DNA from: Actinocrinis puniceicyclus
GTDB taxonomy: Bacteria > Actinomycetota > Actinomycetes > Streptomycetales > Catenulisporaceae
Assembly (NCBI RefSeq): GCF_018283645.1
Contig: NZ_JAGSXH010000060.1
Coordinates: 1-37,745 of the forward strand
Direction of reading: 5' to 3'
DNA length: 37,745 bases
Position 1 is the stretch's first letter, and every line of letters starts with the position of its first letter. Positions 4,239 to 21,230 of the stretch are shown piece by piece. The position numbers were made by a program, and so were the translations under genes. The notes under the pieces were generated by a model. That model saw only the letters and a list, made by a program, of their open reading frames with translations, did not search any database and had not been told where the DNA came from.

Positions 4239-6355
4239 ACGTCGTCCAGCGCGTCGGCGTAGAAGTCCTCGGCCAGTTCCTCGAGGTCGACCTCGTCGTC
4301 ATCGCCCTCCTCGGCCGCCGGCTCCGCAGTCGCAACGCTCTGCGCCGCACCACGCCGCCGTCCCGTGGGTTCCGGGGAGGCTGCGGTCTCTTCTTCGAGG
4401 TCTGGCAGGACGATGCCTGCCTGTTCGCGGGACAGACGCAGGGCTATGCGGCGTTCGGCTGGCGTCGTGCCCAGCCCGAGATTCCAGCGTTCGAGCAGGT
4501 CGGCGAGCGCGAGCCGATCATCCGGATAGGTGTATTTCGATGCGGCCAGCTTCCGGGCGAACGCCAAGGCGTCCTCGCTCAGCGCCATGTCCAATGACGC
4601 GGCGTGCTCCCATGTCAGCACGTGCCAGCGGCGCTGGTCGGGATCTCGGAAGTAGATCTTGGAGATGTCGTCGGGGTCCACCTGGAACGGCCAGTGCCCC
4701 CGCACCGTGTCTTTGCCCTCGTAGGCGCTCTCTTCGTTGCGGTACGGGTTGATTCCCGGCCCGTTGTAGCGCCGGCCTTTGAGCTCGACGCCGTAGTGCT
4801 GGATCGTGCGCCACTTGGTCTTGAGGAACTCGAAGCCCAAGTACGGGTCTCTCGGCACCTCGATGTAGCCAGCCCGCGCGACTCCATGCTCGAACATCTT
4901 CGCCGGGGACATCCGCAGGCCAGGCACACCGGGGTCGATCAGACTGCTGTGCGGCCGGTGGTGATATACCGTCGCGACCCATCGTCGGATCTTTTCCTCT
5001 AACTCGTCCAGGTAGAAGAACGCCTCGTCCTCGACGTTCTCACCACGCGAGAAGATGTCCGGTCCCTTATACCCGGGAAGCGCCTGGAGCAGATCTTCCC
5101 GCAGGGTTCTGAAAAAGCGCTCGATCGGCCCCTTGTCCCGGCCCGTGCGCAGCCGGGCTGGCTGGATCGATATCCCCATCCGACGGCACACACTGGTCAA
5201 GTGCTCGGAGACGTAGACCTTGCCGTGGTCGATCACGACGGTCTCTGGTGCGAGCGGCGGCGTGGCGAAGCCGGGTCCTTCGACCGCCTGCACATCGACC
5301 AGCAGCGTGCGGGGAAGACCGTGCTCTGGCCACACCGCGTACGATGGCCAGTCTTTCCCGGCTGGGCGCGGCCGGAACGCCTGATAGAGCACGGCACTGA
5401 CATCGGCCGACTTCGTGGAAACCGGGGTCAGACGGATCCCGGTGATGCAGCGGGTGTACCAGTCCATGGCGACGCTCAACTCGGCCTGCACCCACCGCAG
5501 CGTGAACGGGTCGAACGCGAACACGTCCAACCGCGTGGTGTCCATCAGCAGGTATTCGCCTGGCCGGGTCGGGCGCAGCTTGCCGTAGACGCCCTCGGGC
5601 CGGCTGGCGATGTCCCGATTGCGCTTCGTGCTCAGTCGGAAGGTCGGGTGTCGGAGCTCCAGTACCACCAGGACTCGAAACGCAGTGGCGCGGCTGGGTT
5701 GGCGGACTACTCCCGCCCCGAACCTGGAGACCACCCGCGCGTTGGCGCGCTCGATCACCAGGGTACGTGAGGGTTTCGACTCGTCGGTGTGTTCGACCAT
5801 GATCTCGAGTGCGGCTTCCACCCACCGCTGGTCAACGTCGGGAAGCTCCCGCCGACCCGTCGGCCGTTTCCCAGCCAGGCCAGACTCTCCGTTCTCCCGA
5901 AAAGCGGCGGCCCAGCGCCTAACGCTCAGATGGGTGACTCCCAGTTCCGCCGCCTTCGCCGCATAGCGTTCGCCCAGCGGCAGCGAAGGATCGAACTGCG
6001 GCCGCGGCTCACCTTCCCGCGCGAGCTGCGCACTGCCGCTGCGGTATCCCGTCAGCACCTCCCGCACATGCTCGGCGCGTTCGAGCAACCTCTTGCGGGC
6101 CGGCTCGTCGAGTTGCCCGAGCACAGCAAACGCGAGCTGGTCATCATCGGACTGCGGTCCCGGACCTTCCGGGATCACACTGGCGCGATCAGAGAACAGC
6201 AGCTCGCGCAACGCGATCCGCATCAGCCGGTCTCGACCGTCCCTGAGCACGACCTCGTTCCCCGCCGTCGTCGCCGCGAACTCGACAACACTGACTACGT
6301 CCCCGTCGAACTGAAACCGGGTGCCCACCCCCACCCGTACGGCCGCGCCTGTCAC
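4235..6355 (-). CDS. tnsB: TnsB-like DDE transposase of E1
   Basis: TnsB binds the transposon ends and carries out 3'-end cleavage and strand transfer. I start the gene at the GTG at 6355, which overlaps the tnsA stop (GTGA) as the other junctions do; an open frame extends to 6427 but would overlap tnsA further. In the 706-residue product the catalytic triad is Asp272 (LLMDTTRLD), Asp376 (VVIDHGK) and Glu412 (DKGPIERFF), a DD(35)E spacing. An N-terminal helix-turn-helix region (YAAKAAELGVTHLSVRRWA) precedes the core. The acidic C-terminal tail (EEGDDDEVDLEELAEDFYAD) is also present in the E2 copy and in this family probably contacts TnsC. Confidence 0.95.
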   Translation of the reverse strand: MTGAAVRVGVGTRFQFDGDVVSVVEFAATTAGNEVVLRDGRDRLMRIALRELLFSDRASVIPEGPGPQSDDDQLAFAVLGQLDEPARKRLLERAEHVREVLTGYRSGSAQLAREGEPRPQFDPSLPLGERYAAKAAELGVTHLSVRRWAAAFRENGESGLAGKRPTGRRELPDVDQRWVEAALEIMVEHTDESKPSRTLVIERANARVVSRFGAGVVRQPSRATAFRVLVVLELRHPTFRLSTKRNRDIASRPEGVYGKLRPTRPGEYLLMDTTRLDVFAFDPFTLRWVQAELSVAMDWYTRCITGIRLTPVSTKSADVSAVLYQAFRPRPAGKDWPSYAVWPEHGLPRTLLVDVQAVEGPGFATPPLAPETVVIDHGKVYVSEHLTSVCRRMGISIQPARLRTGRDKGPIERFFRTLREDLLQALPGYKGPDIFSRGENVEDEAFFYLDELEEKIRRWVATVYHHRPHSSLIDPGVPGLRMSPAKMFEHGVARAGYIEVPRDPYLGFEFLKTKWRTIQHYGVELKGRRYNGPGINPYRNEESAYEGKDTVRGHWPFQVDPDDISKIYFRDPDQRRWHVLTWEHAASLDMALSEDALAFARKLAASKYTYPDDRLALADLLERWNLGLGTTPAERRIALRLSREQAGIVLPDLEEETAASPEPTGRRRGAAQSVATAEPAAEEGDDDEVDLEELAEDFYADALDDV

Positions 6356-7274: not shown

Positions 7275-7279
7275 CTAAA
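7275..7279. repeat. target-site duplication of E2 (left copy)
   Basis: CTAAA directly precedes the TGT of the E2 left tip and is repeated at 18744-18748 directly after the ACA of the right tip. A 5-bp duplication is the signature of Tn7-family insertion. These five bases also coincide with the last five bases of E1. Confidence 0.85.
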
Positions 7280-7379
7280 TGTAGGATCCGCGTTCCAGTG
7301 TCACATGCCGAGCTCTTGAGCTGGTTGTTCTCCCGGTTCCGCAGTCCTTGTCACCTTGATCGTTCCGTGGGTCGTGTCA
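7280..7379. repeat. E2 left end: terminal repeat plus two more TnsB-type sites
   Basis: The tip begins TGTAGGATCC. Three related sites follow in the same orientation: TCCGCGTTCCAGTGTCA (7287-7303), TCCGCAGTCCTTGTCA (7338-7353) and TCCGTGGGTCGTGTCA (7364-7379). They match the right-end sites in inverted orientation. Spaced sites on the left and closely packed sites on the right resemble Tn7. Confidence 0.8.
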
Positions 7380-7424
7380 TTTCCCCCTACCGCGCCAGCT
7401 GGCTCACCTTCGTCGAGCCGGCGA

Positions 7425-8423
7425 TCACAAAGGGGGTGCCTCGAATAGGTAGTCGTACACTTCGCGTAACCTCTCGTCGAAGAGGCCGCCCGGATCGGCC
7501 TCTGCCAGCAGAATCTCGTCGATCTCGGGCTTACCGAAGAGCACGACGGTCTTGGAGTTGACCGCTCGCCGGAATACGGCGCGGGCTCCGTCGTCGAATC
7601 CGGAGTGGGAGACGAACAGGCCGATCGTCGCCGGGCGTGGGTCGAGTTTCGCGAGGAACTCGCGTGCCTTTCCGCCGGTCATGGGCTTGGCGTACCAGCG
7701 CACCTCGCCCAGGATGTGCACACCGTTGCGGATCGCGGTGAAATCGTCGTCCTCGCCCGCGATGGTGATCTTCTTTGGGTGCCACCCGTGGTGCCCCAGT
7801 ACATCGCGCCACAGCTTCTCGAACGCGATTCCGCGTGTCTGCGGGCTCTCAGTCCACGCCAGCAGGGATCGGTACGCGTCACGGTATCCGGCGCGTACCT
7901 GCGTCCCCTCGAACGTCGCGCGCAGCGCGGGCAGTTGCTCCTGTGCAATGCGTCCGTCGTGGTTCGCGCGGCCGCTGCCGTGCAGCGGTGCGTCCCTAAG
8001 CATGGTCTGCGCGGTGTCGGCGACGAAGTTGGTGCCCGGCACGTTGACCAGCCCGAGAACGTTTTCCTCGGCCAGGCCGAGGAGTTCCCGAACCTTTCGT
8101 GCACGCATGTCGCCTGGCGTGCTCAGGGTCCAGTCCTGGTCGAAGCCGTCACTCGCGTCCACCTGCTGCCACAGTTTGAATTTGCCACTGGGTTCGTCGA
8201 TGAAGAAGAGGTAGAAGTCGAAGTCGCTGCTCAGCAGCACCAAGCTCGTGTCCTGCCCGATCCGGCGCCCATAGAGTGGAAACAAGCGTGACCGTTTGCC
8301 GAAAGACTCAAGCTCGCGTGCGACGGCGCCGAAGTTCGTCGCGACGGTGGCGGCGTAGGACCAGAGGAACGTCTCCGCGTAAGCCGTGACCTTCTGCTCA
8401 ACATCTGCGGCAGCGCCGGTCAT
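7425..8423 (-). CDS. restriction-endonuclease-like cargo protein (E2)
   Basis: The 332-residue protein has an unrecognised N-terminal domain (to about residue 195) and a C-terminal domain like the Mrr/PD-(D/E)XK nucleases: helix with Glu202 (FEKLWRDVLGHHGW), Asp226/Asp227 (GEDDDFTAIRNG) and Glu240 in ILGEVRWYAKP. The usual ExK is ExR here, though Lys246 is close and could substitute. The ATG start has AGAGGA upstream. It is the first gene inside the left end of E2 and is transcribed toward the tip. Inference: a defence nuclease acting on foreign DNA; the substrate and any modification dependence cannot be told. A nuclease-dead or transposon-maintenance role is possible. Confidence 0.6.
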   Translation of the reverse strand: MTGAAADVEQKVTAYAETFLWSYAATVATNFGAVARELESFGKRSRLFPLYGRRIGQDTSLVLLSSDFDFYLFFIDEPSGKFKLWQQVDASDGFDQDWTLSTPGDMRARKVRELLGLAEENVLGLVNVPGTNFVADTAQTMLRDAPLHGSGRANHDGRIAQEQLPALRATFEGTQVRAGYRDAYRSLLAWTESPQTRGIAFEKLWRDVLGHHGWHPKKITIAGEDDDFTAIRNGVHILGEVRWYAKPMTGGKAREFLAKLDPRPATIGLFVSHSGFDDGARAVFRRAVNSKTVVLFGKPEIDEILLAEADPGGLFDERLREVYDYLFEAPPL

Positions 8424-8674
8424 GACTGTCCTCTTCCAAATCGGTTGATGCGAGGAAGGCCAAGCAGTCCCTGCTGATGGGTGGTGGTGTGGACACGGCG
8501 CATTGATCTCGGTTGCCAGTAGTTGCCCGGTCGATGAATGATCACCGGACCATCTTGGCGAACCACACCGACAACCGGGGCACTCCGATCAGCGCCCATT
8601 CGCTGTCGGCGAACGCCTGCTCGTGCAGTGCGAGCCCCTCCTCGATGTATTACCGCCCACCACGTACAAGCTCG
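8424..8674. other. non-coding gap in E2 cargo
   Basis: No gene or clear repeat seen. It separates the nuclease-like gene from the nucleotidyltransferase operon and presumably holds the promoter of the former. Confidence 0.4.
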
Positions 8675-9343
8675 TCAGGCCACCCGACTACCCGAAACGC
8701 CGGACGAGGGACAACGCCGCGAGGAGTCGTCCGGTTGGTAGTTGACTCCCACAGGCACCAAGGTCAGCAGCGGGAATGATGAGGCCACAGTCAAGAGCTG
8801 GCTGGAGTCCCGTAGGTTTCGGCTACCTCGGCCCCAGTCCTCCGGCCGACATCTGGAGACGCCGCTCCTCGCCTGATGACCAGCTGCCGCTGTGGTCGGC
8901 ACCACGCCAACCTTCCGCAGTCTGCGGATGTCCCGCTGGTCTTTCGGCCGACCGAGTTGTTCCTTGTAGGCAAGGACGTCGGCGAGCTGGGCGAACGGGA
9001 GTCCCTGGATGATCTCTGCTCGGTCAATCAGCTCAGTCGCGTTCCACTCGTCCGACACCCACCCGGCGGAGAACTGGATGCGGCCGTCGCAGAATTGGGA
9101 GATGCGGGCGCCGTTGACCTCGCCGATGGAGGGGACGCCATGTTGTTCGGCCAGGCGCCAGGTCTCGTTGCGGGCCACAATGTCCAAGTCCCAGATTTTC
9201 GGCCGAAGCCCCTTTGCCAGTAGAGGGCCGCTGCCAAAGATCACCATGTCGCCCAGGTCTAGGCCGAGCTTGTCGACGATGACAAGTAGGTTGTGGATGA
9301 GTGGATGCTCACGCAGGCGGGCGTGATGCGCCAGTTTAGACAC
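8675..9343 (-). CDS. nucleotidyltransferase-fold protein (E2 cargo)
   Basis: The first 140 residues look like a Pol-beta-type nucleotidyltransferase: a GSG turn (residues 37-39) followed by Asp52-Leu-Asp54 in KIWDLDIV, and a later KEQLGRPKDQRDIRRL helix typical of MNT/AbiEii-like proteins. The GTG start follows the stop of the preceding small gene after one base (TAA-A-GTG), so the two are co-translated. After about residue 142 the sequence becomes low in family character (GHQARSGVSRCRPEDWGRG onward); this tail may come from loss of the original stop or from a frameshift. Possible roles: a toxin/antitoxin-type nucleotidyltransferase or the enzyme of a nucleotide-signalling module with the adjacent Crp-type sensor. 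The substrate is unknown. Confidence 0.6.
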   Translation of the reverse strand: MSKLAHHARLREHPLIHNLLVIVDKLGLDLGDMVIFGSGPLLAKGLRPKIWDLDIVARNETWRLAEQHGVPSIGEVNGARISQFCDGRIQFSAGWVSDEWNATELIDRAEIIQGLPFAQLADVLAYKEQLGRPKDQRDIRRLRKVGVVPTTAAAGHQARSGVSRCRPEDWGRGSRNLRDSSQLLTVASSFPLLTLVPVGVNYQPDDSSRRCPSSGVSGSRVA

Positions 9344-9344
9344 T

Positions 9345-9587
9345 TTAAGCCTCCGGAGCGGTCTTCAGCGCGGATGTTCCGTCGGATGCAGGGCTGCGCT
9401 TGCCGTCGAGATGCTTCTGCGCCTTGCCGAGGGCGATGGCGAGCTCCGGCCGCTGCTCCGGAGTGGAATCTTTGAGCATGCTCCGGAGTCGGTCCGTGAA
9501 GGCCCGCTCCTTGATCCAGATAGCCAGCACCCGTGCCAACGCGACGATGAGCGAAACGCACGTGCCCCCGACTTCGACGTAGATCAT
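9345..9587 (-). CDS. small membrane-anchored protein (E2 cargo)
   Basis: An 80-residue protein with one hydrophobic segment near the N-terminus (GGTCVSLIVALARVLAIWI) followed by a charged tail (KERAFTDRLRSMLKDSTPEQ and an Ala/Lys-rich end). It sits between the Crp-type regulator and the nucleotidyltransferase and is nearly fused to the latter (one-base gap), so the three probably act together. I do not know a function; small single-pass proteins beside nucleotide sensors and nucleotidyltransferases can be membrane effectors or regulatory subunits. ATG start with GGGGG upstream. Confidence 0.6.
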   Translation of the reverse strand: MIYVEVGGTCVSLIVALARVLAIWIKERAFTDRLRSMLKDSTPEQRPELAIALGKAQKHLDGKRSPASDGTSALKTAPEA

Positions 9588-9645
9588 GACGGGCCCCCGA
9601 CTCCAAACTGCGGCAGCGGCGTTGTCATCTGCATGACCCGGCCGG

Positions 9646-10326
9646 TCAGCCGACCGTCATGAGGCCATCGGCGATGTTGCGCAGCGCTGACAGCTTGCGG
9701 ATGGTGATCGCCTGTCGACCGGTATCGACGATGCCCGATGCCTTGAGCAGCCGGATGACTTTCTTGACCGACTCGAGCTTGTTCGCGCCTACTAGGGCAG
9801 ACATCTCCTCCTGGCTCATCCGCAGCAGCGCGCTGTCCTCATCGAGTCTCTCGCCGACGCCATAGTCGACTAGTTCGATGAGAGCCTTGGCGAGCTGCTG
9901 TCCAATAGCGAGTTCCGATTCGGTGCGCTTGGTGTTCGCCCGGCGGGTCCGGATCGCTGTTGCAGCCCACAAGTCCAAGATGATGTGTGGATGGGCGAGG
10001 AGGAACTTCGTCCATGGGCCTTTAGGTAGGAACACGGCACTGACGTCGTTGAGAGCGATGATGCCCGCCGATCGCGGTTCCTCTGTGATCACGCCGATCT
10101 CGCCGACGATCGCGCCGGGTCCCCGAACATCGACAATCCGGCCGGGCTCGCCCTGCACAACCTTGACAAAGCCCTTTTTGATCAGCAGGGCGAAGTCGCC
10201 GGGCTCGCCCTCGAGGAAGAATGGCTGTTCGGCGGCACGGTTGAGCGGATGGCCGATGGACTCCATCTCGGCCAGCTCTTCTGCGGAGCAGAACGGTTGC
10301 TCTCGCCAGCGAAACGCTTCAGACAT
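9646..10326 (-). CDS. Crp/Fnr-type cyclic-nucleotide-binding regulator (E2 cargo)
   Basis: I start the 226-residue protein at the ATG giving MSEAFRWREQ, since the frame upstream (to 10362) is not protein-like. No Shine-Dalgarno sequence is visible, so it may be leaderless. A cNMP-binding beta-barrel covers about residues 15-125. Its phosphate-binding cassette is largely preserved (GEIGVITEEPRSAGI, with Glu and Arg-Ser), so it may bind a nucleotide. The C-terminal winged helix is MSQEEMSALVGANKLESVKK. It precedes a small membrane protein and a nucleotidyltransferase in one transcriptional direction, 58 bases from the former. Inference: a sensor that responds to the product of that enzyme and controls the operon. 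Confidence 0.85.
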   Translation of the reverse strand: MSEAFRWREQPFCSAEELAEMESIGHPLNRAAEQPFFLEGEPGDFALLIKKGFVKVVQGEPGRIVDVRGPGAIVGEIGVITEEPRSAGIIALNDVSAVFLPKGPWTKFLLAHPHIILDLWAATAIRTRRANTKRTESELAIGQQLAKALIELVDYGVGERLDEDSALLRMSQEEMSALVGANKLESVKKVIRLLKASGIVDTGRQAITIRKLSALRNIADGLMTVG

Positions 10327-10395
10327 GCTTGAAAGTGTAATGCGACATGTTAGAAGAAGCAATAGTCTGCCTTGTAGAGGGTTTTACTACCCGTG

Positions 10396-10890
10396 CTACG
10401 CAGCGATGGCGTTGACGAGCATCTGTGGAACGGCGTCGAGCGCGGTATCGAGGAGATGCTCGATGGCGACGGCCGGTGATCCAGCTTGATCAACGTCGAC
10501 CATGCCGGCCCAGGCTTCCGGTTCGTAGCGAGCGAGCGACGAGAGTGCGAGCGTCACGATCCACCAAGCCAGCAGCGGGTGCAGCGGCCGGTCCATCCCG
10601 GATACAGCGGGCAGCACCCACCAGTCGCCTCGGTAGCGGGTAGCGCAGCGCTGTTCCACCGTGGACACGTCGGGGCCGGGATCGGGACGTTCATCAGAAA
10701 GCTCGTCTCGAGTACCGAGTTCGTGAAACGGTATTCGACTGGCGGAGCGGGCGGGGGCGAACTGCTCCGCGGCTGCGAGCCTTGCAGCGTGGGATAGCCG
10801 GACAGGAAGTCGAGGAGCCGGTCACGGGACGGATCGTCCGCGAGGGTCACGGGCAATCCAGTGGGCCTGAACAGCGCCGTGAGGATTAGG
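10396..10890 (-). pseudogene. frameshifted YaaC-like protein remnant
   Basis: The distal part (10396-10668) reads HPLLAWWIVTLALSSLARYE and then a stretch ending in DAVPQMLVNAIAA, which resembles the C-terminal end of YaaC-family proteins (HPLL, then LS..CRYE..WW). Upstream coding similarity continues in a different frame, about 10670-10890 (LADDPSRDRLLDFLSGYPTL, then YRFTNSVLETSFLMNVPIPA). The two parts would join by a one-base shift near 10665-10680. The family is over 300 residues long, so the N-terminal half is also missing. The fragment directly follows the ParB-like gene. Likely a decayed cargo gene. Confidence 0.5.
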
Positions 10891-10897
10891 GACCTGC

Positions 10898-11845
10898 CTA
10901 CTCGTACTCTTCGGCGACCTCGGTGGCACGGGCTGGGGATACGAGCATCTTCTTCCGGTCGCGCAGACCTGAGTTGTACGCGGTGACGATGTTCTCGGCC
11001 AAAGGGAGGCTGCGGGAGTTCGAGCCGCCGCCTGAAGTGGTCATCCGAACTGCGTGCATCTTCCAATGACCCACGGGCGCCTTCTGGAGGGTCCTGCTTA
11101 GGCGGTCGAGCTGGACTGTGTCCCAGTTGGTATCGATGACCATCCCCACGGCCCGGATAGCCATGTTGTCCCAGGTGGTCCGGTCCTTTGTCCAAGCGTC
11201 GGCAAGAGTGTTCAGGACTTTAGGAAGTAGCCCTTCGCGCTTAGCGCCAACCGCCATGACGGCCTGGACAGCGCCAATCTGGTTGGCCGAAGTGCTCCCG
11301 GTTACTGTCAGACCGCAGGACAGCACCTCGTCGTCGATTCGGGTCACCAATTTGTCCTTGGCGGTCAGCGCCACCCGGTAGTTGTCGACTGGGCGGACTG
11401 CCTTTCGGTCGCGGTTGGCAGCCAGGAACAGCGCGGCTTCCTCGGAGCGAGTCAAGCCCTCATAGACCATGCAGTGACGGGTGAAATTCGGTCCGTGCTT
11501 CTCCGCAGCCACCCTCGTGGAGTGCTGGCCATCTAGCAAGTAGTACCGGCCGTCCTCACGCTTGGACACGATCGCGGCCAGCAGGACCGCAGGGTTCCAG
11601 ATGCTTGCCAACTTATTGGCCCAAGAGCGCTGGTACATGCGCTGCGCATCCAGGGACGGGTCGATCTCCAGGAGGCCCACGGCGATCTTCTCGTGATACA
11701 CGGGCCGGTCGTCCTGCGGTGGTACCACGTACTGCGGAGGCACCTTACTGCGCTGTTTGCCTGGGGACTTCTTCGCCAGAACGGCCTTCGTTGTCAATGG
11801 ATTACCTCTCTGCGTTGACCCGGTTACTGACACAGAGTCAAGCAT
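10898..11845 (-). CDS. ParB/sulfiredoxin-fold protein, DUF6551-type (E2 cargo)
   Basis: The protein contains YYLLDGQHSTRVAAEKHG, the DGQHR-like box of ParB N-terminal/sulfiredoxin-fold proteins, then LTRSEEAALFLAANRDRKAV, as in actinobacterial and phage DUF6551 proteins. Function is not established; such folds bind DNA or nucleotides and can hydrolyse CTP or ATP. An open frame begins at 11860 (ATG CGA GAG), but that ATG lies inside a 17-bp repeat array, so I favour the ATG at 11845 (MLDSVSVTGS, 315 residues). The gene is the last cargo gene before tniQ and has a dedicated repeat array as promoter or operator. Confidence 0.65.
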   Translation of the reverse strand: MLDSVSVTGSTQRGNPLTTKAVLAKKSPGKQRSKVPPQYVVPPQDDRPVYHEKIAVGLLEIDPSLDAQRMYQRSWANKLASIWNPAVLLAAIVSKREDGRYYLLDGQHSTRVAAEKHGPNFTRHCMVYEGLTRSEEAALFLAANRDRKAVRPVDNYRVALTAKDKLVTRIDDEVLSCGLTVTGSTSANQIGAVQAVMAVGAKREGLLPKVLNTLADAWTKDRTTWDNMAIRAVGMVIDTNWDTVQLDRLSRTLQKAPVGHWKMHAVRMTTSGGGSNSRSLPLAENIVTAYNSGLRDRKKMLVSPARATEVAEEYE

Positions 11846-11853
11846 AGAAATCT

Positions 11854-11911
11854 CTCGCATGTCAATTTTTCTCGCATTGGTACATTTCTCGCACTAGTGG
11901 ATTCCTCGCAT
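11854..11911. promoter_or_regulatory. four repeats with 17-bp period upstream of the ParB-like gene
   Basis: CTCGCAT or CTCGCAC occurs at 11854, 11871, 11888 and 11905, exactly 17 bp apart, each preceded by a T-rich spacer (for example TTTTTCTCGCAT). On the gene's strand the unit is ATGCGAGAAA. The array is AT-rich against the GC-rich background and covers the start region of the ParB-like gene. Tandem sites in helical near-phase suggest cooperative binding of a protein, perhaps the gene product itself. Confidence 0.7.
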
Positions 11912-12205
11912 CGGCGCGCTGGAGTGGGGCTACAGCCGCGAGACCTGTTCAGCTCGGCGCGAACCTTGAGCCGATCATTGTGGTTCTCGCCCGCCTGTCG
12001 TGGCGCCGGGAAAGCCAACGCGGGTGATCTTTGTGGCCTCGGCCTAAGCTTCCTGCTCGGCCTGTGACGCAGCGCTACGAAGCGTCAGGAGCTGGATCTG
12101 TGCCGCGGCAATCTTTAGGGGGCGGATCAGTTCAAGGCCATGTTCGCTGCCCGTGTCGTCGAGTGACCTGGTGCTCGTTGAGGACCCTTGCGATGGACGC
12201 ATGGG
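11912..12205. other. non-coding gap between repeat array and tniQ (E2)
   Basis: No gene supported. Short open frames here lack ribosome binding sites and protein-like composition. It marks the junction of the transposition module and the cargo. Confidence 0.4.
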
Positions 12206-14584
12206 CTACGGGCTCGCGGCGCCCTGGTCAGCGTTTTGGTCAGAAGGTTTACGAAGGTGCGCCGCGTGGCTTCCTCCTCCTGGAGGACGCATCGGAATGC
12301 CGTAGGCATGAGCCCTGTCGAGAATGACGGAAATGCTCGTGCCCTTCTCCCGGGCGATCTCGCCCGGTGTTCGGCGCAGCTCGACGTACTGCTCGACGAG
12401 CCATTCCCGGTCGATGTCGTCGTAGCGTCGGTGGTGGACGGTGCGCATCGGGATGCCGTACTCGCCGGCCAGTCGTGCGACCATCGCGCGTGTGATCCCG
12501 TAGGCGTTTCCGATGGACTGGGCCGATTGGTACTCGTCGAGATAGCGGCGTCTGAGCTCGTGCTCTGGGAGCAGTTGGCGGGCGACCCGCATGCGTTGCC
12601 CGGTGGCACGCGCCTGGGTAGCGGTCTTGGGCGCCATGGGGGCCGGGTGTTCGGTGAGAACGTCGCGGATCGTCTCGATTCTGCTGCCGAGGGCGTCGGC
12701 GGCGAATCGTGCGGGGTAGCGACGTCCCTGGACAAGCTTGTGGAGGTGAGCGATGTCGATGTCTGCGGGGTCGGTTCCGGGAAGGTCGATGCCGTCGAGC
12801 AGGGCGATCGGTGGATTCCAGACGACGGGTTCGTCTTCTGCGCCCTGGGTGGCGAGGAACTCGCGCGCGACCGCGTCGAGCGCATCGGCGATTTCCGCCG
12901 GCCGTACTTCGATGAACCGTTCGCACTCGGAGCGAAATGGTGTCTGCTCGGTGGCGGGGAAGCCTGGGGCTGCGTCGATGGGCAGGGCGCTGATGCGGTG
13001 GAACAGGACGCATCGTGCAACGCGGGCCCGCAACTCACCTCCGGCGGGGTAGCCGATGGTGCGACACAGACCGGTCCACTGGGTACTGGGGAGTAGGTCG
13101 CGGTAGTCCAGTCGACGGCGCCGTTCGTAGTCGATCGCTATATCAGATTCATCGAGGAAGTCGGCCAGGCGGTCCAGGGCGACCGTCGCTGCGTCCCAGC
13201 CCTGCCGCTCTTGCAGCAGCTGCAGCAAGCGGGACACGGTCGGAAGGTCGGTGACCGAGCCGAGCATTGCTGCGGCGGCGTTCATGGTCAGCCCGCTGCC
13301 GACGAGCAGCGTTGCCGCGGCCCAGGCCGGTGCGAGGACACGGGAGTAGACCCCGGGTGGGCTCAGTCGCACCTGCCACGCTGTCCAAAAGACGCTGGGC
13401 AGTGCGCGGGCGCGGCTGTTGAGCTGCAGCTCGTCGGCCCTTTCTCGCGCGGGGAAGGCAGAGGTGCGCATCCGGAGCTGATCGCCAGGGCGCAGGGTCG
13501 GACCGAGTGCGGCGAGCTGTATCGATCGCAAGACCGGGCCGGTGCCCCGGCCCCACGTGACGATCGTGGTGACGGTGGCCTTCTCGGCGCCTTCGCGGCA
13601 TGAATCGATCAATTCTCGCATCGCTCTGGCCGCTGCGGACCGCGATTTGGTGCCGAGGATCCGCAGCGCTGCGGTGATTGCGATCGCGGTGGTTGATGCG
13701 GTCGGCGGGGCCATGAACCCAGGGCGGATCAAGGTCTTGCGCTGGGGGTCACCCCCGGAATCGTGTGAAGCGGCGTCAGCGTCCAGGATGTCCAGGGGAA
13801 CCCACGCCGACAGCTTCGGAGCCGTGATGTTGGCGAGCACTCTGCCGGCAACGGCCCGCACTTCGGAGAGAGCGACGCTGGCAGGCTGGGGAAGTCGTCC
13901 GTAGAGCCCGAATACGGCCCGGTCGGCGTCGATGGTCTCAAGCACAAGTCTTTGCGCCGTGAGCGCGGGGTGGTCCTCAGCGAGGCGGAGCGTGCGGGTC
14001 GTGCTTAGCTCATGGCCGCATCCGGAGGTGGGCTCCGCGCGTTTTGATGGCCAGCTCCCGCATCGTCCCGGTATGGGCAAACCGTCGCGTGAAAACATCA
14101 TCTGACGCGGTGTCCTCATGCACTTCGGACACAGGTCTGCCAGCAGGCGGCCGTGTCGCAGGCAGGCGAATGACCATCCCAGGCGCCAGGTCAGCTGCCA
14201 TCGGCCGCCGCTGTCCGCGAGGCAGTCCGGACAATAGCGAGAGCCGCTACCCCGTCCCCATAGGCGCTTTCTGTTCACCTGCCGCGTCTCCGAGTCGATC
14301 AGCAACGCCCGGCCTTGAAAACGCATCAGCGTCATGCGGTGAAGAACGCTCTGATCCGTGCCGGTCGCGTGGGCAATCCCCGCCGCTTCGTGCTCACGCA
14401 ACGCGATAGTCCAGTCATTGGGCACGTCCGGATTGCGGCTCTTATGCTTCGTGCGCGCCGACAGGTCGAGATCCTGCAGCACGTCGCCGTAGCGGACCTG
14501 CATGCGGTGAGTCAGCGCCTCCAACCAGGAGTCAAGCGCCTCTCCGGGCAGCGGTGCGATGCGGATCGGGAAGGTGCGGACCAC
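12206..14584 (-). CDS. tniQ: TniQ/TnsD-like target-selection protein of E2
   Basis: I start at the GTG at 14584 (product begins VRTFPIRIAPLPGEALDSWL), 5 bases past the tnsC stop; an open frame to 14656 would overlap tnsC and has no family resemblance upstream. The 792-residue length then matches the E1 copy (787). The TniQ zinc block is intact: RYCPDCLADSGGRWQLTWRL, then FACLRHGRLLADLCPKC. The C-terminus has two HTH-like segments (QSIGNAYGITRAMVARLAGE and TPGEIAREKGTSISVILDRA). Presumed role: recognition of the dnaB 3' end and recruitment of TnsC. It is the only target selector in the element. Confidence 0.92.
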   Translation of the reverse strand: MVRTFPIRIAPLPGEALDSWLEALTHRMQVRYGDVLQDLDLSARTKHKSRNPDVPNDWTIALREHEAAGIAHATGTDQSVLHRMTLMRFQGRALLIDSETRQVNRKRLWGRGSGSRYCPDCLADSGGRWQLTWRLGWSFACLRHGRLLADLCPKCMRTPRQMMFSRDGLPIPGRCGSWPSKRAEPTSGCGHELSTTRTLRLAEDHPALTAQRLVLETIDADRAVFGLYGRLPQPASVALSEVRAVAGRVLANITAPKLSAWVPLDILDADAASHDSGGDPQRKTLIRPGFMAPPTASTTAIAITAALRILGTKSRSAAARAMRELIDSCREGAEKATVTTIVTWGRGTGPVLRSIQLAALGPTLRPGDQLRMRTSAFPARERADELQLNSRARALPSVFWTAWQVRLSPPGVYSRVLAPAWAAATLLVGSGLTMNAAAAMLGSVTDLPTVSRLLQLLQERQGWDAATVALDRLADFLDESDIAIDYERRRRLDYRDLLPSTQWTGLCRTIGYPAGGELRARVARCVLFHRISALPIDAAPGFPATEQTPFRSECERFIEVRPAEIADALDAVAREFLATQGAEDEPVVWNPPIALLDGIDLPGTDPADIDIAHLHKLVQGRRYPARFAADALGSRIETIRDVLTEHPAPMAPKTATQARATGQRMRVARQLLPEHELRRRYLDEYQSAQSIGNAYGITRAMVARLAGEYGIPMRTVHHRRYDDIDREWLVEQYVELRRTPGEIAREKGTSISVILDRAHAYGIPMRPPGGGSHAAHLRKPSDQNADQGAASP

Positions 14585-14589
14585 AGCCG

Positions 14590-15717
14590 TCAGCCCTGCT
14601 TTCTGTGGTTCCTCGGCCTGCTGGTCTTCATGCCGCTCGCTAGCAACTCCTCCCATTGCGCCTGCTGCTCCCGCGCGGCCCTGTCGGGTTTGACGTGGGT
14701 GAGAAGGTCGGGCGTCAGGCGCTCTTCGCCGGTGCGGATGGCCCGCAGACAGGCCCGCTTGACCAGCGTCATCAGGGAGCCGATGTGGCCGCTGCAGCGC
14801 GCGTAGAGGTGGTCGGACAGGTCGTCGGCCAGCATGCCCGGGTACTTGTCAGCCAGCACCACGCGCTGTTCCAGGGAGAGCAGGAAGCTGCGCCACTGCA
14901 TGCGCCCGGCTTCGTTTTTGATCGTGAACGGGGCCAGTTCGAGCGGGGTGATCCGGCGCTCGAGCTGCGGGTCCTCGTACAGGCCCTTTTTGCGCAGGTC
15001 GTAGCCGATGAACAGGATCATCAAGGGGAACTCGTTGGCGATCGTCTTGAACTGGTTGGCCAGCTCGGTCCCGCGTATCGAGCGGAACCGCAGGAACTGC
15101 AGATCATCTACTAGCAAGAGCCTTGATTCGCAGGAGACGGCGCAGTCCAGGGCCCGGGAAAGGAACGAGTTCGCGGTCCCGCTGTTGCGCCCGGAATGGG
15201 CGAAGAACTCCAGCATCGCCCAGTTGAAGTCCTTGACCGTTGTGTCGCCCATCATGCCGACCCGGATCACCGGCCACCGCTCGTGACCCGCGGCGGTAAA
15301 CCGGCCGTGCTGGCGGATCAGGTCGTTGTGCACGCGCTTGGCGAAGGAGAGACCGACGGTGGTCTTGCCCAAGCCAGGGAACGCGTCAACCGCAGCCATG
15401 CCCTTGGCCTCCCAGTTCGGCTGGTCCAGCCCGGCTTCGAGGACGTCAGTTAGATCCGCTATGAGCCCATCGGCCTGCACCGTTTTGATCGGTCGTAGGT
15501 TGGCCAAGAACCTGCGACGTGCGAGATCGTGCTCTTCTTTCGCTGCTGGCCCCAAGGCCTTGAGTTCGACCATCGTCATGTCGGGCGGGCGTGGATAGTC
15601 CGGCGCCTCGGCGAACGCCGCGAACCCCTCCTTCCTGGTCAAGGTCAGCTCATCGAGGCGTAGGGACTTCCACGCCGGATCCTCCGGCACTGCGGTATCG
15701 GGTTTCGGCCTGCTCAC
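14590..15717 (-). CDS. tnsC: TnsC-like AAA+ ATPase of E2
   Basis: The 375-residue protein has Walker A FPGLGKTT (Gly117-Lys118) and Walker B SRLLLVDDLQFL (about residues 198-209). Layout and length match the E1 TnsC, but many positions differ, including the N-terminal 60 residues. It joins TniQ bound at the target to the TnsAB transposase. The GTG start overlaps the tnsB stop (GTGA). A short basic C-terminus (KTSRPRNHRKQG) resembles that of E1. Confidence 0.93.
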   Translation of the reverse strand: MSRPKPDTAVPEDPAWKSLRLDELTLTRKEGFAAFAEAPDYPRPPDMTMVELKALGPAAKEEHDLARRRFLANLRPIKTVQADGLIADLTDVLEAGLDQPNWEAKGMAAVDAFPGLGKTTVGLSFAKRVHNDLIRQHGRFTAAGHERWPVIRVGMMGDTTVKDFNWAMLEFFAHSGRNSGTANSFLSRALDCAVSCESRLLLVDDLQFLRFRSIRGTELANQFKTIANEFPLMILFIGYDLRKKGLYEDPQLERRITPLELAPFTIKNEAGRMQWRSFLLSLEQRVVLADKYPGMLADDLSDHLYARCSGHIGSLMTLVKRACLRAIRTGEERLTPDLLTHVKPDRAAREQQAQWEELLASGMKTSRPRNHRKQG

Positions 15718-17822
15718 AGGTCCTCCAGCGCTTCGGCGTAGAAGGCGTCCTCGTCCAAGTCCTCGGGCTCGAGTTCCGAACCGCCCTCGTCCTCTTCGAA
15801 ATCAGCCTCGTCATCGTCGCCGTATAGGTCCTGCTGCGGCGCCGACAACGCTCGTCGGCGCGCGGGCTCATCAAGCGCGATGGCGAACGCCGCCTGGTCC
15901 CGGGCTGCTCGTAGTGCCATGCGACGCTCGGCCAGTGTCATCCCCTGTCCGAGGTTCCAGCGCTCAAGCAGGACCTTGACCGCGAGGGCATCGCTCGGGT
16001 GCTCAAACCGTTCGGCCGCCAGCTTCCTACCGAACTCGAGTGCGTCCTCGCTGAGCGGGAAGTCACGCTCGGCCGCGTGCTCCCAGTCCAACTGATGCCA
16101 TTTGCGGTCCAGGTCCCGGAAGTAGGCGTGGTCGACGTCGTCCGGGTTGACCTGGATTGGCCACTTCCCGTTCAGATACGGGCTTGGGCGCCCATCGCGG
16201 TAGAGCCCCTCGCCGTTGTAGCGCCGCCCGTCGATCTCCACTCCGTAAGGCTGGATGGTGCGCCACTGCGTCTCGAGGAACTCCAGCGCGAGGTACGGGT
16301 CGCGCGGCACCTCGATGTACCCAGCGCGTGCGACGCCGTGCTCGAACATCTGCGCCGGACTCATGCGCAGGCCCTTGATGCCTGGGTCTCCGAGACTCGA
16401 GTGCGGCCTGCGATGGTAGGTGGCCGCGACCCATTGGCGAATCCGGTCGAATAGTTCGTCGATGTAGTAGAAGGCTTCGCGTTCCGGATGTTCGCCGCGG
16501 GCGAACAGGTCCTGGCCCTTGTAGCCGGGCAGCCTGTGCAGCAGATCCTCTCTCAAGGTTCTGAAAAACCGCTCGATCGGGCCCTTGTCCCGGCCCGTCC
16601 GCAGCCGCACCGGCTGGATGGAGATGCCCATCCGGGCGCACACGCTGCGCATGTGCTCAGAGACGTAGATCTTCCCGTGGTCGATGACGATGGCCTCGGG
16701 TGCCAGCGCGGGACCAGCGGCCTTCGCCATCGGCCCGTCGATTGCGGACGGATCCAGCACCACCGTGCGGGGGATGCCGTGCTCGGGCCAGACCGCTTCG
16801 GCCGGCCAGTGCGGCAGGACCGGCAGCGGCCGGTAGGCCTGGAAGAGGACCGCGGCCGCGTCCACGGCCTTCGTGGACACGGGGGTCAGACGCGCCCCGA
16901 CGATGCACCGGGTGTACCAGTCCATGGCCACGGTCAATTCGCAGTTGATCCACCGCAGGGTCGCCGGATCCAAGGCGTACACATCGAGCCGGGTGGTGTC
17001 CATCAACACGTACTCGCCTGGCCTCGTCGGGCGCAGCCGCCCGAACACGCCGCGGGGCCGGGCCGCGATGTCCCGGTTGTGCTTAGTGCTCAGCCGGAAC
17101 GTGGGATGCTGCCTCTCCAACTCGGTCAGCGCGTCATAGGCCTTCGTCCGGCCCGGAACCTCCACTGCCCCTTCCCCGAACCGGGCGACGACCCTGGCCT
17201 CGGCTTGCTCGAGCACCGTCTTGCGCATCGGCTTGGACTGGCCCGTGTACTCCTTGAGGATCTCGGCCATCACCTCCACCCATCGGACATCACACCGGTC
17301 GAGGACTGTCGGCACACGGATGGATCCGGCAAGGCCTGCCTCACCCAACCGCCTCGTCGCGACGACCCACCGGTACACCGTGCGCCAGTGCACCCCCAAC
17401 TCGGCTGCCTTCGCCTCATAGCGCGCCATCTGTGGGAGCGAGGGATCGTACCCCGGGCGAGGTTCACCTTCCCTGGCCAGTTCGGCGGAGCCGGACTTGT
17501 ACCCCGTGCACACCTCCCGCGCGTGCTCCGCCCGCTCAACCAGCCAGTCCCGCTTCTTGGAGTCGATCTCTTCGAGGAGCGAGAGCGTCGCCGAGGCCAA
17601 CTCGTCCGCGCCGTCACCGGATGGCCCCGGACCGTCAGCCACGATCCGCACACGCTCGGAGAACAGCAGTTCCTTGACCGAAACCCGCAGGTACTGCCCA
17701 CGAGCACTGCGCAGCACCACGTCGGTTCCGATCTGGCGCGCCGCGAACTCCACGACCTCGACCATCTCGCCGTCGTGGACCAAGCGGGTGCCCACCTCGA
17801 GCCGCGTTGCCCCTCGGCTCAC
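15714..17822 (-). CDS. tnsB: TnsB-like DDE transposase of E2
   Basis: A 702-residue DDE transposase: Asp275 (VLMDTTRLD), Asp381 (IVIDHGK) and Glu417 (DKGPIERFF), a DD(35)E pattern. An N-terminal helix-turn-helix region (YEAKAAELGVHWRTVYRWV) precedes the core, and an acidic C-terminal tail (DDDEADFEEDEGGSELEPED) matches the E1 copy. It should bind the TCCGC...TGTCA sites at both ends of E2; these differ from the candidate sites of E1, consistent with diverged DNA-binding domains. The GTG start overlaps the tnsA stop by four bases. Confidence 0.95.
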   Translation of the reverse strand: MSRGATRLEVGTRLVHDGEMVEVVEFAARQIGTDVVLRSARGQYLRVSVKELLFSERVRIVADGPGPSGDGADELASATLSLLEEIDSKKRDWLVERAEHAREVCTGYKSGSAELAREGEPRPGYDPSLPQMARYEAKAAELGVHWRTVYRWVVATRRLGEAGLAGSIRVPTVLDRCDVRWVEVMAEILKEYTGQSKPMRKTVLEQAEARVVARFGEGAVEVPGRTKAYDALTELERQHPTFRLSTKHNRDIAARPRGVFGRLRPTRPGEYVLMDTTRLDVYALDPATLRWINCELTVAMDWYTRCIVGARLTPVSTKAVDAAAVLFQAYRPLPVLPHWPAEAVWPEHGIPRTVVLDPSAIDGPMAKAAGPALAPEAIVIDHGKIYVSEHMRSVCARMGISIQPVRLRTGRDKGPIERFFRTLREDLLHRLPGYKGQDLFARGEHPEREAFYYIDELFDRIRQWVAATYHRRPHSSLGDPGIKGLRMSPAQMFEHGVARAGYIEVPRDPYLALEFLETQWRTIQPYGVEIDGRRYNGEGLYRDGRPSPYLNGKWPIQVNPDDVDHAYFRDLDRKWHQLDWEHAAERDFPLSEDALEFGRKLAAERFEHPSDALAVKVLLERWNLGQGMTLAERRMALRAARDQAAFAIALDEPARRRALSAPQQDLYGDDDEADFEEDEGGSELEPEDLDEDAFYAEALEDL

Positions 17823-18550
17823 GACGCTCTCCGCACAATGCTTCCGCGTGAGAGCACGCGATCGAGATCAGTGGTCAAGCGCCCAGTCCACAGCAGATGC
17901 AGCACGGCCGAGCGCACCAGTCTTGTATCAGCCTGCTCAGTCGCTTCGAACGCATCTTCCAGGGCCATCCCGGTCACGACACCCGAGCGCACCCACTTCA
18001 AAAGCGCGGGATCGAAGAGCGCGGACCTGCGGTAGCCGGCCAGGAACCGTAGATTTTTCAGCCGTATCGGCGGAGGCTCGCTCCACACCTCATAGCGCCA
18101 ACCGTGGTCGTCGACGATGCCTCTCGCCCAGCCGAGCGCGAACGCCACGTCTTCCTTGGCCAGCTTTGATGCGGGCTTCACGTCCACGACCAGGGGCCCA
18201 GACCCCGTCATCAGAAGGAAGTCGGGGACATGGCGGCGCACGGCACCATCGACCTCGGCCGTCATCAAGAACGGCTGCGCAACGATCCGGGAGACCTTCC
18301 GATCAAAGTCCGCGAATAGAAGCCGCGCTAACTCCAGCCGGGACTCGAAGATCACATGCGCCTGCTCGGTCGCCGACCAGTACGCCCCTGAATAGTGCCG
18401 CTGCCCGAAGTGCCAGCGAAACGTCCGCCACGGCCCGGCCGCAAGTAGCGCGTCCAACGGCGCGGCACTGAACTCACACGCGACTGCTTCCGAACCACAT
18501 GGGTCCTTGGCGCGTATGAAGGCACTCGACATTGCTATCCGACCAGACAT
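17819..18550 (-). CDS. tnsA: TnsA-like endonuclease of E2
   Basis: An open frame runs to 18685, but that would reach into the right-end repeats and read through the palindrome at 18632-18655. I prefer the ATG at 18550 (MSGRIAMSSAFIRA, 243 residues, GAGG four bases upstream); an ATG at 18532 is also possible. Relative to 18550 the nuclease residues are Glu69 (IFESRLELARL), Asp110 (HVPDFLLM) and Lys125 (LVVDVKP), the TnsA triad. With TnsB it forms a cut-and-paste transposase. The region following residue 180 is the helical domain expected to contact TnsC. First gene of the operon. Confidence 0.9.
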   Translation of the reverse strand: MSGRIAMSSAFIRAKDPCGSEAVACEFSAAPLDALLAAGPWRTFRWHFGQRHYSGAYWSATEQAHVIFESRLELARLLFADFDRKVSRIVAQPFLMTAEVDGAVRRHVPDFLLMTGSGPLVVDVKPASKLAKEDVAFALGWARGIVDDHGWRYEVWSEPPPIRLKNLRFLAGYRRSALFDPALLKWVRSGVVTGMALEDAFEATEQADTRLVRSAVLHLLWTGRLTTDLDRVLSRGSIVRRAS

Positions 18551-18631
18551 CCCGCCTCGCATCATGGCTTCGCTCAACGACGACGGGCCACGATCCCGCG
18601 CCACGACGCGGAGGACACCAAGAACGGCCCG

Positions 18632-18655
18632 GGCCTCACCCGATCGAGTGAGGCC
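18632..18655. promoter_or_regulatory. palindrome upstream of tnsA (E2)
   Basis: Arms GGCCTCAC and GTGAGGCC flank a CCGATCGA centre, a 24-bp near-perfect palindrome. The inner 16 bp (18636-18651) follow TCACnCGATCGnGTGA as in E1 at 7172-7187, at the same distance from the element tip. Probable operator for the tns operon, or a protein-binding part of the right end. Confidence 0.6.
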
Positions 18656-18657
18656 CC

Positions 18658-18743
18658 TGACTAGGATGTCCGCGGGATATGCCAAAACTGCTATCCGGCT
18701 GACATGGAGTCGCGGATTCTGACACCGGATTGCGGACCCTACA
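18658..18743. repeat. E2 right end: terminal repeat plus TnsB-type sites
   Basis: Reading inward on the minus strand the tip begins TGTAGGGTCC. TnsB-type sites are TCCGCAATCCGGTGTCA (18720-18736), TCCGCGACTCCATGTCA (18700-18716) and a weaker one, CCGCGGACATCCTAGTCA (18658-18675). They share TCCGC...TGTCA with the left-end sites in inverted orientation. Confidence 0.8.
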
Positions 18744-18748
18744 CTAAA
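18744..18748. repeat. target-site duplication of E2 (right copy)
   Basis: CTAAA directly follows the terminal ACA of E2 and matches 7275-7279. Seven bases (GCCGGGG) separate it from the dnaB stop codon. Confidence 0.85.
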
Positions 18749-18755
18749 GCCGGGG

Positions 18756-21230
18756 TCAACTCTGAGCCATGTCCACGAAGCGGGAGTAGTGGCCCTGGAA
18801 CGCGACCGTGATCGTGGAGGTGGGTCCGTTACGGTGCTTGGCCACGATCAGGTCGGCCTCGCCGGCGCGGGGCGACTCACGCTCGTAGGCGTCCTCGCGG
18901 TGCAGCAGGATGACGACGTCGGCGTCCTGCTCAAGGGAGCCGGACTCGCGCAGGTCGGACATCATGGGGCGCTTGTCGGTGCGCTGCTCGGGACCACGGT
19001 TGAGCTGCGCGATCGCGATGACCGGCAGTTCGAGTTCCTTGGCCAGCAGCTTGAGCGCACGCGACATCTCGGAGACCTCCTGCTGGCGGCTCTCCGGGCG
19101 GCGTGAACCCCCGGTGGACATCAACTGCAGGTAGTCGACGATCACAAGGCGCAGGTCGTGACGCTGTTTGAGACGGCGGCACTTGGCCCGGATCTCCATC
19201 ATCGACATGTTGGGCGAGTCGTCGATGAACAGCGGAGCGGCCGACACCTCGCCCATCCTGCGGGCCAGGCGCGCCCAGTCCTCGTCGGTCATCGTGCCGG
19301 AACGCATGTGGTGCAGGGCCACCCGGGCCTCCGCGGACAGCAGGCGCATGGTGATCTCGTTGCGGCCCATTTCGAGACTGAAGATCACACTGGTCAGGCC
19401 GTTGCGGATCGAGCAGGATCGAGCCAGGTCCAGGCCCAGCGTCGAGTTGTGCGTCGGAATCCAGGTCGGGCCCGCCAGATACAGGTGGTCGTCGTTGTCG
19501 ACCTGCACGCATCGCACCGGGACGGAAGCGATCGCTCGCACGTCCGTGATGTATCGCAGGCCCGTGCTCGGATCGTCCCGTCCGCTTTGGCGCACAACCT
19601 TCCGGGGCACTCGAAAGACCTTCTCGGAAGGCGTGAAGGCGACGGTGTGCGTGGCCGAACCGCCATGGTCGCGCTCGGCGCCGGGCCAGGTCGTCATCGT
19701 GGACTTGTAGCCGAGGCTCAGCACCAGTTCCCAGATGTCGCGCGCGAACCTCGGATGGGTCGCCGAGATGTGGACAGCGCCGGTCTCATCGACCTCGCCC
19801 TCGGTGTCGAGCAGGCCGGCGAGCAGATCGCGGCGCTGCGACTCAGAGGCTCGAAGATACTCGCCGGGGATGTGCTTGTCGCCGAGAACGCCCATGCTGC
19901 GCAAGAGCTCCGGCACCGTGCCGGCCTCGCCGGGACGGCACGTCTGACAGCGCGTCAGCTCAACTGATGAGCCCGCGCAGGCCTCGCACCAACGCTCCGC
20001 AACCGCGGCGAGCGTCCCATCCGTGGCGGCCGCGAAACCTTCGGCCGCGAGCTGCTCGACGATCTGTGGGTCGTCGATGTCGATGCGTGCGGCGCCCGAT
20101 GCGGCGCCCGCCCGGCTGCGCCCCAGCCAGACGCCGAGCGCGTACGGCGACAACGGAAGATCCCGCCCGGGCAGTTTCGCCGCGGCCGCGACGGCGACAG
20201 CGTGGTCCGGCCGGCTTCCGGGAAGATCGCGGCGCAGGGTGTCAGCGAGCTGCCTGGTCGTCTTCACGCACGCAGACGTCTGTGTCTGCGTCGGCCACTG
20301 ATGCAGTGCATCGGCGACCAGGACGGTGCCGTCGGAGAACTCGACCTCGTAGCACGGGCGGTCAGTCATGGCATCGGTCGCCGCGACCACACGAGTGGGG
20401 CGGCCGTCCGCGCCCAGCAGCCAGTCGCCGACCTGAACGACGCCCATCGTGGTCCAGCCGGTCGGCGTCGGCAGCGGTGTGTCGAGCGCCAGCGCCTTAC
20501 CGATGGCCGGACGCGCCGCGATGATGATCATCTGGCCCGGGTGCAGGCCGTTGGTCAGCTGGTCGAGATCGGTGAAGCCGGTTGGGACGCCGGTCATCTG
20601 GCCCGAGCGGTTGGAGATCGACTCGATCTCGTCGAGCGCGCCCTCCATGATGTCCGCCAGCGGGGCGTAATCCTCTCCGGCGCGCTGCTCGGTGACGCCG
20701 TAGATCTCGGCCTGCGCGCGATTGACGATCTCGTCGAGGTCCGCGCCGTCGGTCGCGTAGCCCATCTGCGTGATCCGGGTCCCCGCCTCGACCAGGCGGC
20801 GCAGGATCGCGCGCTCGCGCACGATCACCGCGTAATACCCCGCGTTGGCCGCGGTGGGCACCGAGGACATCAGCGTGTGCAGGTACGGCGCACCGCCGAC
20901 CCGGGTCAGCTCGCCGCGCTTGGTCAGCTCAGCGGAGACGGTGACGGCGTCGGCGGGTTCGCCCCGCCCGTAGAGGTCGAGGATCGAGTCGAAGATCAGC
21001 TCGTGTGCCGGCTTGTAGAAGTCCCGGCCCTTGACGACGTCGATGACGTCCGCGATAGCGTCCTTCGACAGCAGCATGCCGCCGAGGACGCCTTGCTCGG
21101 CCGCCAGATCCTGAGGCGGCGTCCGGTCATATGACGAGCGAGCGCCACCATAACCCGTCGGCGGACCGGGATCGCCCAGGCCGTCGTCGGGGGGTTCGGG
21201 GACGCCGTCCGGGCCGTTGAAGGCGGACAC
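18756..21230 (-). CDS. dnaB: replicative DNA helicase DnaB with intein
   Basis: DnaB is the hexameric helicase of the replication fork. The 824-residue precursor has the N-terminal primase-interacting domain (PPQDLAAEQGVLGGMLLSKD), the RecA-like motor (GFTDLDQLTNGLHPGQMIII), Walker A split at Gly-Lys245 by an intein (residues 246-595), and downstream motifs (LRLVIVDYLQLMS; DLRESGSLEQDADVVILLHR; VAKHRNGPTSTI). After splicing the protein would be 474 residues, a normal DnaB length, with Walker A restored as ARPAIGK-STLGLD. GTG start with AGGAGG upstream. It is separated from rplI by 342 bases. Its 3' flank is the insertion point of E2. Confidence 0.96.
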   Translation of the reverse strand: MSAFNGPDGVPEPPDDGLGDPGPPTGYGGARSSYDRTPPQDLAAEQGVLGGMLLSKDAIADVIDVVKGRDFYKPAHELIFDSILDLYGRGEPADAVTVSAELTKRGELTRVGGAPYLHTLMSSVPTAANAGYYAVIVRERAILRRLVEAGTRITQMGYATDGADLDEIVNRAQAEIYGVTEQRAGEDYAPLADIMEGALDEIESISNRSGQMTGVPTGFTDLDQLTNGLHPGQMIIIAARPAIGKALALDTPLPTPTGWTTMGVVQVGDWLLGADGRPTRVVAATDAMTDRPCYEVEFSDGTVLVADALHQWPTQTQTSACVKTTRQLADTLRRDLPGSRPDHAVAVAAAAKLPGRDLPLSPYALGVWLGRSRAGAASGAARIDIDDPQIVEQLAAEGFAAATDGTLAAVAERWCEACAGSSVELTRCQTCRPGEAGTVPELLRSMGVLGDKHIPGEYLRASESQRRDLLAGLLDTEGEVDETGAVHISATHPRFARDIWELVLSLGYKSTMTTWPGAERDHGGSATHTVAFTPSEKVFRVPRKVVRQSGRDDPSTGLRYITDVRAIASVPVRCVQVDNDDHLYLAGPTWIPTHNSTLGLDLARSCSIRNGLTSVIFSLEMGRNEITMRLLSAEARVALHHMRSGTMTDEDWARLARRMGEVSAAPLFIDDSPNMSMMEIRAKCRRLKQRHDLRLVIVDYLQLMSTGGSRRPESRQQEVSEMSRALKLLAKELELPVIAIAQLNRGPEQRTDKRPMMSDLRESGSLEQDADVVILLHREDAYERESPRAGEADLIVAKHRNGPTSTITVAFQGHYSRFVDMAQS
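19446..20495 (-). other. intein in the Walker A motif of DnaB, class 3-like
   Basis: Residues 246-595 of the precursor (350 aa). The N-terminal residue is Ala (ALALDTPLPTPTGW), not Cys or Ser, and the C-terminus is PTHN followed by Ser. It carries the three residues that mark class 3 inteins: Trp after the block B His (LHQWPT), Cys in block F (VRCVQVDN) and Thr before His-Asn. The endonuclease region has two LAGLIDADG-type helices. The first (YALGVWLGRSRAG) lacks the acidic residue normally after LG, the second (LLAGLLDTEGEV) keeps an acid, so homing activity is probably lost. Between them is a CxxC...CxxC pair (WCEAC, RCQTC), possibly a zinc finger. Confidence 0.85.

Follow-up and report, generated by a model that had tools for sequence, protein, structure and literature searches.

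The solitary DUF6551 gene of Actinocrinis puniceicyclus is preceded by an array of four head-to-tail units at a 17-bp pitch, and this array is most likely a dedicated multi-site operator, through which the DUF6551 protein would repress its own gene. We would put the probability of this reading at about 0.6. Sequence comparison establishes the existence, conservation, uniqueness and position of the array, which lies in a stretch of 37,745 nucleotides that was analysed as a whole and is called the window here. Phages, plasmids and genomic islands all carry DUF6551 proteins, which are orphan nucleotide binders of the ParB fold, and the single paper found to name the family gives no function for it.

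The first-pass annotation had reported four repeats with an exact 17-bp period, and every check on this point confirmed it. The 6-mer CTCGCA recurs in the window sequence at 11854, 11871, 11888 and 11905, with a spacing of exactly 17/17/17; the copies at 11854, 11871 and 11905 read CTCGCAT and the copy at 11888 reads CTCGCAC. Tandem Repeats Finder, run on the window, called the array at 11868-11911 (period 17, score 53). Nowhere else in the 37.7 kb does an identical 6-mer recur four times with exact spacing (periods 7-40 nt), and a four-copy exact-period 6-mer array (period 12-40) appeared in 0/200 dinucleotide-preserving shuffles. A unit matrix was also built from relatives alone, the window sequence being excluded. 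With it the three 17-spaced pairs of the window array scored 40.0, 36.1 and 26.4, and shifted frames of this array reached no more than 18.9; outside the array the top pair score, both strands of the window included, was 8.8. In gene orientation each unit consists of NNTGCGAGAAA and a free linker, and the unit site at its fixed 17-bp pitch, head-to-tail, is TGCGAGAAA. From 11912 down to 11845 the units are as follows:

11845..11912, minus strand: the four-unit 17-bp array
11896..11912, minus strand: unit 1, most distant from the gene, GATGCGAGGAATCCACT
11879..11895, minus strand: unit 2, AGTGCGAGAAATGTACC
11862..11878, minus strand: unit 3, AATGCGAGAAAAATTGA, whose 3′ end together with the next base forms TTGAC
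11845..11861, minus strand: unit 4, closest to the gene, between the -35-like and -10-like hexamers, CATGCGAGAGATTTCTA

How far does the array extend beyond this genome? Among the 392 genomes of the order that were scanned, 28, including that of the window, have a DUF6551 homologue. The close relatives, a sample from the collections at hand, comprise ten from GTDB contigs, one from a viral contig and one from a plasmid. The array is present throughout the DUF6551 clade nearest to the window protein (46-90% identity; Streptomyces, Dactylosporangium, the plasmid and the viral contig), where all 12 other members carry it at the same position before DUF6551. Compared with the four units of the window, relatives have three to five: four in S. 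actuosus (L064), S. sp. SirexAA-E (L057) and S. sp. DH5 (L056), and five in Dactylosporangium vinaceum (L058). The S. lucensis group has two units plus a palindromic last unit (CGCGGAAATATTTCCGCG in L059, at 5888-5908; the corresponding region in L060 and L065 is likewise palindromic), which suggests that the binder may act as a dimer on two half-sites. In the SID12488 group units one and three are kept, 34 bp apart, and the middle unit has decayed. L061, L062, L066 and L078 were assigned by this 34-bp (2x17) spacing of the outer units, since a simple in-register counter misses their form because of the decayed middle unit. The 17-bp register is preserved even there.

In pairwise comparisons of the five best-kept members the unit cores are 78-94% identical, whereas the linkers are 22-44% identical; the DNA immediately upstream of the array is 21-56% identical. 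Conserved cores between diverged linkers are the pattern left by selection on spaced binding sites, and judged by it the array is under purifying selection. In the phylogenetic tree the array clade forms one side of a branch with 99/99 support, so placed that the array has one origin and was inherited with the DUF6551 clade. Within about 6 kb, DUF6551 is the only gene common to the 12 loci, and besides this gene the array is the only thing that they share. Neighbours vary from locus to locus. Only two are defence-like: near L060 a type I restriction-like gene, and near L064 a mads_2-like match; an association with defence systems was rejected, as the neighbours differ between loci. Searching the relatives' flanks with Rfam returned tRNAs only.

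The features between the array and the gene, and the gene itself, are these:

11860..11865, minus strand: candidate -35 hexamer TTGACA over the junction of units 3 and 4, read from the sequence and not confirmed by the consensus scan
11836..11841, minus strand: candidate -10-like hexamer TTGACT, a weak match 18 bp after the -35-like hexamer, read from the sequence, with no consensus promoter
11828..11841, minus strand: TTGAC-N5-GTCA dyad directly past the array, which several relatives retain (TTGACTGGACGTCAA in L064)
11805-11811, minus strand: ribosome-binding site AGAGAGG, read from the sequence
10898..11797, minus strand: DUF6551 (PF20188) ParB-fold protein of 299 aa from TTG 11797, with the motif LLDGQHS (profile E 3.7e-10; phrog_1033; predicted fold)

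Originally the array had been placed at the start of the gene. This has to be corrected: the probable start on the minus strand is TTG 11797, behind the ribosome-binding site AGAGAGG, and the array therefore lies upstream of the DUF6551 gene and is not coding. An ATG at 11860 falls within the last repeat, and in the relatives the likely start codons are likewise downstream of the array. In the five best-kept members the last GCGA core and the start codon are 51-61 bp apart. Most relatives retain TTGAC or a variant that differs by one base, and likewise variants of the -10-like hexamer, which reads TAGAGT in Dactylosporangium and TACGGT in the S. lucensis group. The dyad and TTGAC are absent from some relatives (L056, L059 group), and a consensus promoter and terminator scan found nothing. 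The conserved sites lie in the promoter region of a ParB-fold gene, the promoter itself being putative.

That the gene encodes a ParB-fold protein, as the first-pass annotation had it, is borne out here. The PF20188 score is 40.2 bits against a gathering cut-off of 26.8, which places the protein in the family; its phrog_1033 match is ParB-like; and the first half of its structural model is a ParB N-domain. This model, built from 12 sequences (a low depth; mean pLDDT 74), reached Z up to 9.1 to a pNOB8-like ParB (rmsd 6.1, 165 aligned), and its fold matches include KorB (Z 6.2, rmsd 11.6, 134 aligned) and Noc. Within the limits of a low-depth model, the N-terminal nucleotide-binding fold of canonical ParB and KorB is present. 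The second half is helical. Taken alone it was matched to nothing by Foldseek at E<0.001 or by VIA-align at Z >= 5, and neither program recognised a clear helix-turn-helix or other DNA-binding domain in it. Relatives of solved structure, sought by sequence, yielded none that were meaningful.

The binder, the sign of regulation and nucleotide control are what we infer from these data. The DUF6551 protein is the likeliest binder. The orphan ParB-fold protein would bind the array units side by side, and on unit 4 it would cover the promoter; since this unit lies between the -35-like and -10-like hexamers, its occupancy should block RNA polymerase. Such a block would hold DUF6551 expression at a set level, and this autorepression may be gated by nucleotide binding, by analogy with DndB and with KorB, a ParB-fold transcriptional repressor using CTP (PMC12704722). 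DndB is described as an ATP-dependent repressor of the dnd operon (PMC12704722) and protects two sites in its own promoter (PMC4507180), and phage DUF6551 fusions bind CTP or ATP (PMC12704722). The overlap with the likely promoter, the ParB-type N-domain, the nucleotide-binding phage fusions and the DndB precedent together make autorepression the best explanation.

Is the array confined to DUF6551 genes? A two-unit pattern was run against ten genomes, namely G000 and nine that carry relatives (the L056 genome left out), where 15 of 16 matches fell within DUF6551 arrays and the reversed control gave 0; each of the ten genomes has one array. In the 392 genomes of the order a three-unit pattern found the window array, and elsewhere it matched about as seldom as the reversed control did. 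A host-wide regulon was rejected, because these extra matches, occurring at about the control rate, resemble tandem repeats or chance. A strict array pattern found none in viral contigs; L066, a member of the viral set located by its protein, has the degenerate form. The proposal to look for similar arrays before other DUF6551 genes held for close homologues and failed for distant ones. More distant DUF6551 genes of the same order (~32% identity) are without the array, as is L098, a more distant profile match in another family (E 6e-41). Two mycobacteriophage homologues lie within an early operon and overlap the preceding gene, with no upstream room for an array.

A second DUF6551 subfamily of the same order, mostly from one genus, has a different upstream element. 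Here (L041-L051) a conserved leader, CGCGCTGT..ATCCCAAAATCCCGGCTTAGCCG..TCCCCCTAACGCAGCGC-RBS, lies between a -10-like TTAGAT and the DUF6551 ATG. Its outer stem has some compensatory changes (4/7 pairs; the covariation term is weak), and no Rfam family matched it at gathering score. Because another subfamily in the same order has another upstream element, the cis element tracks the protein and not the host.

These observations bear on the possibility that a regulator encoded by the host, activating or repressing, recognises the array, and that the DUF6551 protein is not its binder. Being actinomycetes, the carriers could share such a regulator, and the second half of DUF6551 has no DNA-binding domain that was recognised. 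However, regulators usually have several targets, and an array that occurs once per genome, before the DUF6551 gene only, in the ten genomes searched counts against this explanation. In Streptomyces and Dactylosporangium alike the array also goes with the protein clade, whereas the other DUF6551 subfamily of the same order lacks it. We consider a host regulator unlikely. A multi-site operator tied to the ParB-fold gene, as first proposed, agrees better with an array that is linked to one clade across unrelated loci, is (nearly) unique per genome and overlaps the likely promoter.

The first-pass annotation had also considered an iteron or a centromere, and neither found support: among the genes examined neither a replication gene nor parA turned up, each genome has a single array, chromosomes or large contigs harbour most of the copies, and the loci have no further gene in common. 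As a centromere-like (parS-like) or clamp-loading site, the array would let the protein load and then spread or tether DNA, stabilising the element. The ParB-type fold, the clustering of the sites and the location of one relative on a plasmid and another on a viral contig would suit this. Yet the parA partner of ParABS systems is lacking among the genes common to the loci, and the array is positioned over the likely promoter. Apart from the palindromic last unit of the L059 group, the units are direct repeats in one array per genome, not the inverted-repeat parS sites, often several per replicon, of such systems. This function is improbable.

The surroundings of the array in the window are those of a mobile element:

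7280..18743, minus strand: complete Tn7-like transposon of 11,464 bp with DUF6551 as cargo; termini TGTAGGRTCCGC...GTGTCA, 5-bp duplication CTAAA
12206-14656, leftward: tniQ, upstream of DUF6551
14590-15717, leftward: tnsC-like gene
15714-17822, leftward: tnsB-like gene
17819-18685, leftward: tnsA-like gene (NF033179)
18756-21230: dnaB, with a LAGLIDADG-bearing insert

The element is of the TnsA_like_Actin type and lies beside dnaB, whose insert is probably an intein. Its ends are TGTAGGATCCGCGTTCCAGTGTCA at 7280 and TGTAGGGTCCGCAATCCGGTGTCA (read inward) ending at 18743, and the target duplication CTAAA is found at 7275-7279 and 18744-18748. The cargo consists of DUF6551, a Crp-like regulator and two unknown genes. 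A second tnsA-B-C-tniQ set, 46-60% identical to the first, directly follows at 7128-742; two related elements side by side next to dnaB suggest a dnaB-linked target site. In L057 the array and DUF6551 (10236-12793) are close to tnsA/tnsB-like genes 32-38% identical to those of the window, which makes two clade members linked to Tn7-like elements.

The position of the array between tniQ and the cargo might suggest part of a transposon end (TnsB sites) or of tniQ regulation, but both ends are mapped to 7280 and 18743 with CTAAA and rule out the first, their repeats are about 20 bp apart and of other sequence than the internal array, and only L057 among the relatives has tnsA/B/C/tniQ homologues near its array, so that the idea is hardly credible. 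Equally remote are iterons of a replication origin, which the fixed-pitch direct repeats and some AT-richness recall, as no replication initiator was found among the genes examined near the window array or among those shared by relatives, the copies are single and chromosomal, and the array is tied to DUF6551 only.

Conserved, present in one copy and exact in its spacing, this cis site offers the DUF6551 family a concrete 68-bp candidate DNA ligand, and such a ligand would make the role of orphan ParB-like switches directly testable. Tentatively, it may be the first recognised cis site of the family: a loading site of head-to-tail units, with which an orphan ParB-fold protein, gated by nucleotide and equipped with a DNA-binding domain unlike the usual ParB helix-turn-helix, would set its own level, and perhaps also load onto DNA, on mobile elements.

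Among known systems, KorB of plasmid RK2 has the ParB fold and is one of the fold matches of the DUF6551 model. Its sites are short palindromes at many promoters and it has a clear helix-turn-helix, in contrast to the one array per genome of DUF6551. The phage ParB-like/DUF6551 proteins (phrog_1033) belong to the same protein family as the window protein, but the two mycobacteriophage genes differ in their place inside an operon without space for an array. DndB of Salmonella, acting at the dndBCDE promoter, is ParB-like, with a DGQHR motif where DUF6551 has DGQHS, and it binds nucleotide, binds two sites of its own promoter and represses (PMC4507180, PMC12704722); the DUF6551 protein is predicted to act likewise at its array. 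The DndB sites, however, are palindromes (TACG-N10-CGTA), whereas the array of the window consists of head-to-tail 17-bp units, and DndB heads a phosphorothioation operon, whereas the DUF6551 gene is solitary.
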